Source: a virus. From it: a stretch of 25,366 nucleotides of DNA. Shown in pieces: positions 1,293-1,703 of this stretch. Location: the IMG/VR virus record IMGVR_UViG_3300021379_001019, positions 1 to 25,366 of that record. One strand, written 5' to 3'. The notes beneath the pieces were generated by a model. It was not told the DNA's origin. It did not search any database and was given only the letters and a program-made list of their open reading frames with translations. Position 1 is the stretch's first letter; every line of letters starts with the position of its first letter. The position numbers and the translations under genes were made by a program.

Positions 1293-1353
1293 TGCGAAAC
1301 ACCCTACGGGGTGTCTTGGTGAGATGGGCTACACCAACTGATGAGTTAGCCTA
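1293..1353 (+). ncRNA. Type II hammerhead ribozyme, copy 1
   Basis: All parts of a hammerhead are present in the order of the stem II-open (type II) permutation. C1295-GAA(1296-1298) is followed by stem III (1299-1304 with 1309-1314, six pairs capped by a UACG tetraloop closed by C-G). Then come U1314-C1315 and stem I (UUGGUG 1316-1321 with CACCAA 1332-1337), followed by the core CUGAUGA (1338-1344) and G1345, which pairs with C1295. The cleavage site is predicted between C1315 and U1316. Stem II is very short (G-C plus a U-G wobble). It appears to be supplemented by a pseudoknot in which stem I loop bases 1325-1330 pair with 1348-1353 (one G-U), plus A1331-U1347. The structure ends at the Shine-Dalgarno of the next gene. 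It lies entirely between two genes. Confidence 0.92.
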
Positions 1354-1367
1354 AGGAGAAATGAAAA

Positions 1368-1637
1368 ATGAAAAAGAAATATTATGTTGTTAGATGGGAA
1401 ATAGCCGTTTACAATATGCTTAACAATTATGCAAGAGGTTATGAAGTATATACAAACAAAAAAGAAGCAGAAAAAAAAGTAGAAAATTTAAAAAAAATAC
1501 ATTTCTACGATAGCTTAAAGGTAGAACTATTTCATTTAAAAGGTTGGGAATTAAGCAATATGATAAGTAAAAACCCAGAAAAAACTGAAAAAACAAATTA
1601 TGGTTATGTTCAAAACAAAGGCTTTGAATTTCACTAA
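1368..1637 (+). CDS. Hypothetical protein (89 aa) carried between two hammerhead ribozymes
   Basis: An unrecognised 89-aa basic protein beginning MKKKYYVVRWEIAVYNML, with an all-charged helix in the middle (KKEAEKKVENLKK) and no membrane segment. The start pattern K-K-YYVVRWE and a following 'Y-x-NKKEAEKKVE' resemble small proteins that read and index residues along a strand-helix unit, but I assign no family. The start is set by AAGGAG (1353-1358), seven bases before ATG 1368; an ATG at 1361 is out of frame and soon stops. The whole gene is inside the 350-nt RNA (1316-1665) released by the two ribozymes, with its stop five bases before the second catalytic strand. Its function is unknown, but its position makes it the apparent cargo of the cassette. 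Confidence 0.75.
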   Translation: MKKKYYVVRWEIAVYNMLNNYARGYEVYTNKKEAEKKVENLKKIHFYDSLKVELFHLKGWELSNMISKNPEKTEKTNYGYVQNKGFEFH

Positions 1638-1640
1638 TAA

Positions 1641-1703
1641 ATGCGAAACCCACAAAGCGTGGGTCTTGGGGAAATGGACTACCCCAACTGATGAGCAAGT
1701 CCA
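1641..1703 (+). ncRNA. Type II hammerhead ribozyme, copy 2
   Basis: Second complete copy, same strand and permutation. C1644-GAA(1645-1647) is followed by stem III (1648-1653 with 1659-1664, AAAGC loop), U1664-C1665, stem I (UUGGGG 1666-1671 with CCCCAA 1682-1687) and the core CUGAUGA (1688-1694). Stem II pairs G1695-C1644, C1696-G1643 and A1697-U1642. A six-pair pseudoknot joins loop UGGACU (1675-1680) to AGUCCA (1698-1703). The cut is predicted between C1665 and U1666. Compared with copy 1 there are compensatory changes in stem III (two pairs), stem I (U-A to G-C) and the pseudoknot (G-C to A-U), with different stem III loops. That is the pattern of selection on structure rather than recent duplication. 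Confidence 0.93.

Follow-up and report, generated by a model that had tools for sequence, protein, structure and literature searches.

Hammerhead ribozymes have been known in bacteria and phages since 2011, to our knowledge without a proven role. At the locus described here, two elements between three small phage genes are type II hammerhead ribozymes, a known kind. The window, by which we mean the whole analysed stretch of 25,366 bases from an IMG/VR virus record, contains terminase, portal and primase genes, and its portal has relatives mainly among Firmicutes phages and faecal phages. The order on one strand is ORF 1006-1290, hammerhead 1, ORF 1368-1637, hammerhead 2 and ORF 1720-2043. Coordinates are given on this plus strand unless stated otherwise.

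Both sites lie where the initial annotation had placed them, and re-deriving their anatomy gave a complete core in the stem II-open order, with CUGAUGA, GAAA and an NUH site whose cleavage triplet is GUC. The Rfam covariance-model search that had been proposed as a check matched RF02276 (Hammerhead_II) at both sites: hammerhead 1 (1292-1355) scored 38.4 bits, over the 37-bit cut-off, and hammerhead 2 (1641-1705) scored 35.7 bits, 1.3 bits below it, with E-values of 1.2e-4 and 6e-4, respectively, for the whole window and all Rfam families. Families other than RF02276 gave no match in the window at E ≤ 0.1. A default gathering scan of the window reported neither hammerhead although site 1 exceeds the cut-off; this is apparently an effect of the fast filters, and a permissive scan recovered both. 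Two occurrences of the pattern GAAAC-N4-30-GUC-N10-40-CUGAUGA were counted in the window, where shuffles give an expectation of 0.01. When the core and stems of at least 5 bp were demanded, the window again gave two matches and 150 first-order Markov surrogates, both strands included, gave none, and a chance origin of the two hammerheads was set aside.

The elements run in the order GAAA, stem III, C17, stem I and CUGAUGA; loops close stems I and III, and stem II is open. In hammerhead 1, GAAA (1296-1299) leads into stem III ACACCC/GGGUGU (1299-1304/1309-1314, loop UACG), followed by the predicted cut between C1315, which is C17, and U1316, by stem I UUGGUG/CACCAA (1316-1321/1332-1337) and by CUGAUGA (1338-1344). 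The corresponding parts of hammerhead 2 are GAAA (1645-1648), stem III ACCCAC/GUGGGU (1648-1653/1659-1664), the predicted cut between C1665 (C17) and U1666, stem I UUGGGG/CCCCAA (1666-1671/1682-1687) and CUGAUGA (1688-1694). Stems III and I have six pairs each and loop I has ten bases at both sites. Stem II is as minimal as had been claimed, with two pairs at site 1 (G1345-C1295 and U1346.G1294) and three at site 2 (1695-1697 with 1642-1644). Loop I is complementary to the 3′ tail, the bases immediately 3′ of stem II, and the resulting pseudoknot is UGGGCUA/UAGCCUA at site 1 (1325-1331 with 1347-1353; 7 bp, one G.U) and UGGACU/AGUCCA at site 2 (1675-1680 with 1698-1703; 6 bp). On the minus strand, the stem III hairpins also resemble terminators, at 1297-1316 and 1646-1666 (two calls against 0.4 in shuffles).

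The compensatory changes described in the initial annotation were found again on comparison of the two copies: stem III differs by two double changes (A-U to C-G and C-G to A-U), stem I by one (U-A to G-C) and the pseudoknot by one (G-C to A-U), and pairing is kept in each. These paired changes, together with those in the related loci L004, L005 and L131, speak at the level of sequence for stems I and III and for the predicted loop I-tail pseudoknot. In a class of 28 members with a long loop I, pseudoknot complementarity averages 4.96 bp compared with 3.94 bp (sd 0.15) when the tails are permuted, a mean that 0 of 2000 permutations reached. In a wider test with 51 distinct tails the score was 3.76, higher than in any of 1000 permutations (3.21, sd 0.11). 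RNAfold is unable to represent pseudoknots and favours nested folds in which the pseudoknot strands are paired in place of stem I, so misfolding of the hammerheads is possible. The idea that the pseudoknot stands in for the usual loop-loop contact is not new, as PMC3088659 had already demonstrated this in related type II hammerheads. The loop I-3′ tail pseudoknot occurs in the majority of type II hammerheads, not in all.

From the end of the stop codon to GAAA there are 5 nt at site 1 and 7 nt at site 2, and from CUGAUGA to the start codon 23 nt and 25 nt, respectively. The ORF 5′ of hammerhead 1 (1006-1290, 94 aa) has an 80% identical homologue in two further loci (L132/L133). ORF 1368-1637 (89 aa) stands alone between both ribozymes, and the Shine-Dalgarno-like AAGGAG (1353-1358) that abuts the 3′ strand of the first pseudoknot lies 9 nt before its ATG at 1368. 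At the second junction, the purine-rich Shine-Dalgarno-like stretch GAAAGGGT (1704-1711, with GAAAGGG at 1704-1710) follows directly 3′ of the pseudoknot strand and precedes ATG 1720, from which we read the listed ORF 1600-2043 as a gene of 107 aa (1720-2043) 3′ of hammerhead 2. This ORF matches phrog_4534 (unknown function), the sole match obtained with PADLOC, Pfam and PHROGs for the ribozyme-adjacent genes; ORF 1006-1290 and ORF 1368-1637 gave none in these collections, and no function was assigned to any of the genes. An anti-defence role, prompted by ardA in the part of PMC3088659 considered, is neither supported nor excluded. Upstream of the three genes, a promoter-like site (934-962, TTGACA/17 nt/TAATAT with TG before the -10 element) matches the consensus at 10 of 12 positions; it is not evidence of function, because it is a consensus match only and the region holds 19 such matches compared with 13.1 expected.

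Related loci differ in the genes around the hammerheads. L004 and L005 are about 92% identical to much of the window and have a single hammerhead at the corresponding place, in the order ORF 1006 homologue, hammerhead, a different gene (an 82-aa ORF as called) and ORF 1720 homologue. Compared with the window they are without ORF 1368 and have one hammerhead fewer; the one present is identical to site 2 from stem I onward and has an upstream flank like that of site 1. In L131, a 94% identical homologue of ORF 1368 is found in another gene neighbourhood, preceded by a diverged hammerhead fragment at the start of the locus with stem I CUACAC/GUGUAG, pseudoknot UAAGC/GCUUA and an unchanged core, and no hammerhead was found 3′ of this homologue. 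These arrangements therefore indicate that flanking genes were exchanged at the junctions while a hammerhead stayed. Loss of the core at homologous junctions had been named as one outcome that would speak against the ribozymes; L004, L005 and L131 keep it, with variation in the stems and the pseudoknot. The closest relatives are from IMG/VR only, since blastn of the ribozyme region against annotated phages and tblastn with the 89-aa ORF gave no match; when the 107-aa ORF was scanned against viruses, no relative emerged.

A scan of IMG/VR with a core-containing pattern gave at least 120 stretches, and a structure filter yielded at least 147 distinct type II hammerheads. Conservation of the core in this population is not independent evidence because the members were collected with that pattern; a simple rule served to call the ORFs, and among related sequences only identical ones were dropped. 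Among the matches listed, the stop codon of an upstream ORF of at least 40 codons lies at most 20 nt before the hammerhead at 122 of 143 sites (85%), compared with 4-19% at offset controls. A Shine-Dalgarno sequence with a start codon was present within 60 nt downstream at 97 of 144 sites (67%) among the matches listed, whereas the controls gave 13-28% at offsets and 13 of 145 in antisense. The median gap between stop codon and GAAA is 4 nt (139 sites among the matches listed).

The same placement is seen in isolated phages, where the genes come from the deposited annotation. In Chromohalobacter phage YPCBV-1, Alteromonadaceae phage B23, Pelagibaca phage P1, Burkholderia phage KS10 and Rhodobacter phage RcWaterboi, the hammerhead lies between two CDS, beginning 1-2 nt past the one and stopping about 10-14 nt short of the next. 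In Pseudomonas phage JBD30, which is listed together with many related records from strain PA14, GAAA starts 3 nt past one gene, and the gene that follows lies 11 nt from the end of CUGAUGA. Two Streptomyces phages, Marav and phiELB20, show a looser fit, with a gap of about 190-265 nt on one flank. Within about 1 kb, phage Marav (L139, 1530-2559) has three sequences that resemble type II hammerheads and are absent from its annotation table. In annotated phages (L140, L142, L143, L144 and L146) a hammerhead occupies a gene junction in a stretch left unannotated; several have transposition, Gam-like or GemA-like genes nearby, and in three cases the hammerhead directly follows an HU-like DNA-binding gene.

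Whole records were surveyed for 42 loci of the pattern scan and 6 others. The record IMGVR_UViG_3300017605_000570 (G008, behind locus L046) has 24 RF02276 matches at C1:9932-17520, all on the minus strand, mostly with one ribozyme per small ORF and gaps of mostly 1-7 nt from a stop codon to the next GAAA. This run of 24 was the longest array among the records examined. Three further loci, L019, L025 and L051 (records G010, G009 and G011), have six to nine type II hammerheads each, on one strand per record.

We consider it likely, with a probability of roughly 75%, that the two elements are active and serve as cutters at the gene junctions of a phage operon, judging from their sequences. The polycistronic transcript would be cut at two places, 3′ of C1315 and 3′ of C1665, and each upstream message would then end just past its stop codon with GAAA, the stem III hairpin and a 2′,3′-cyclic phosphate. 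Each downstream message would start with a 5′-OH, the hairpin of stem I and the loop I-tail pseudoknot, followed immediately by the Shine-Dalgarno sequence and the start codon. As a net result, ORF 1006, ORF 1368 and the genes from ORF 1720 onward would become separate mRNAs, whose stability and translation would be free to differ. Both the cleavage and a benefit of separating the messages are what we infer from the observed architecture, covariation and placement and from the conservation of the junction. A distance of 4 nt from stop codon to GAAA is within reach of a terminating ribosome, and a ribosome terminating on the upstream gene would probably cover GAAA. Gating of the cut by ribosomes at the nearby stop codon is our conjecture.

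The ribozymes could also cleave and yet serve mainly as a regulated 5′ leader, in which the pseudoknot beside the Shine-Dalgarno sequence controls translation, and either a signal or ribosome traffic affects cleavage or folding. The abutment of pseudoknot and Shine-Dalgarno sequence at both sites fits this, as do the short median distance to the stop codon among the matches listed and the diverged fragment that precedes the same 89-aa gene in the different surroundings of L131. However, neither a ligand-binding domain nor an alternative conserved structure was seen, the element adjoins the upstream stop codon just as tightly, and in L004 and L005 it remains after the ORF 1006 homologue though the next gene differs. 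We regard a mainly regulatory leader as possible, though not the reading that we would favour. The exchange of genes in these same loci could instead suggest that the hammerheads are mainly conserved boundaries which help small cassettes to recombine in and out, with RNA cleavage secondary: L004 and L005 combine a site-1-like upstream flank and a site-2-like hammerhead with another gene after it and are without ORF 1368 and one hammerhead, and ORF 1368 appears elsewhere in L131. Recombination alone, however, would not select for paired substitutions in stems, the stems in L131 have diverged almost completely, and the spacing to stop codon and Shine-Dalgarno sequence is tighter than a boundary requires, which makes a mainly recombinational role improbable.

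It is very improbable that the elements are remnants that have decayed or lost their activity, or simple hairpins, for example terminators. The score of site 2 below the cut-off and the two stem III hairpins called as terminator-like could be read in this way, but both sites have the complete core and compensatory changes, and the surrogates gave zero matches. As the calls lie on the minus strand and face away from the genes, a terminator function of the hairpins was set aside. Cutting at the gene junctions remains our preferred reading.

Much of what we describe has precedents. Perreault et al. 2011 (PMC3088659), in the part considered here, describe type II hammerheads with a short stem II and a loop I-tail pseudoknot that is required for fast cleavage: its disruption strongly slowed cleavage and its restoration recovered the rate. 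Clustered hammerheads were reported there to flank prophage genes, tandem hammerheads of Clostridium scindens, Azorhizobium and Agrobacterium cleaved in vitro, and the triple set of Agrobacterium cleaved in E. coli. The hammerheads of the window share with RF02276 type II the stem II-open order, GAAA and CUGAUGA, a stem II of 2-3 bp, the pseudoknot and the clustering by phage genes; they differ in the AT-rich phage, the 6-bp stem I, the pseudoknot of 6-7 bp and scores around the Rfam cut-off. Compared with that part of the published description, we found no additional structural feature. The tandems named above are likewise clustered near individual genes, but these are other genes, and the part of the paper considered here does not quantify a fit to stop codon and Shine-Dalgarno sequence. 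Structure, pseudoknot and clustering are thus already published, and the measurement of placement is added here. It agrees with the proposal, in the same part of that paper, that phage transcripts are cut into single-gene or operon-length mRNAs, and sharpens it. In the open-access literature searched, neither a quantified fit nor an array of 24 members was found reported, which is weak evidence of novelty.

In mitochondria, tRNAs at gene junctions act as structured punctuation that marks the cut points of polycistronic RNA, and proteins cut at these tRNAs. The phage hammerheads may be compared with them in working only, as the tRNAs do not cleave themselves and are not homologues. In its widest form, hammerhead punctuation would be widespread in phage operons, with a ribozyme per junction in runs of up to 24, a transcript that falls into messages of one gene each, and terminating ribosomes that gate the cut; we hold this to be rather unlikely as a whole. 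Within it the placement is measured, and gating and an effect on expression are conjecture.

The consistent fit from stop codon to ribosome-binding site narrows the role of the hammerheads to cutting at gene junctions. The tight placement and the spread across phages make such a job testable, and since the fit is also found in isolated phages such as JBD30, a standard laboratory system would suffice for such a test.
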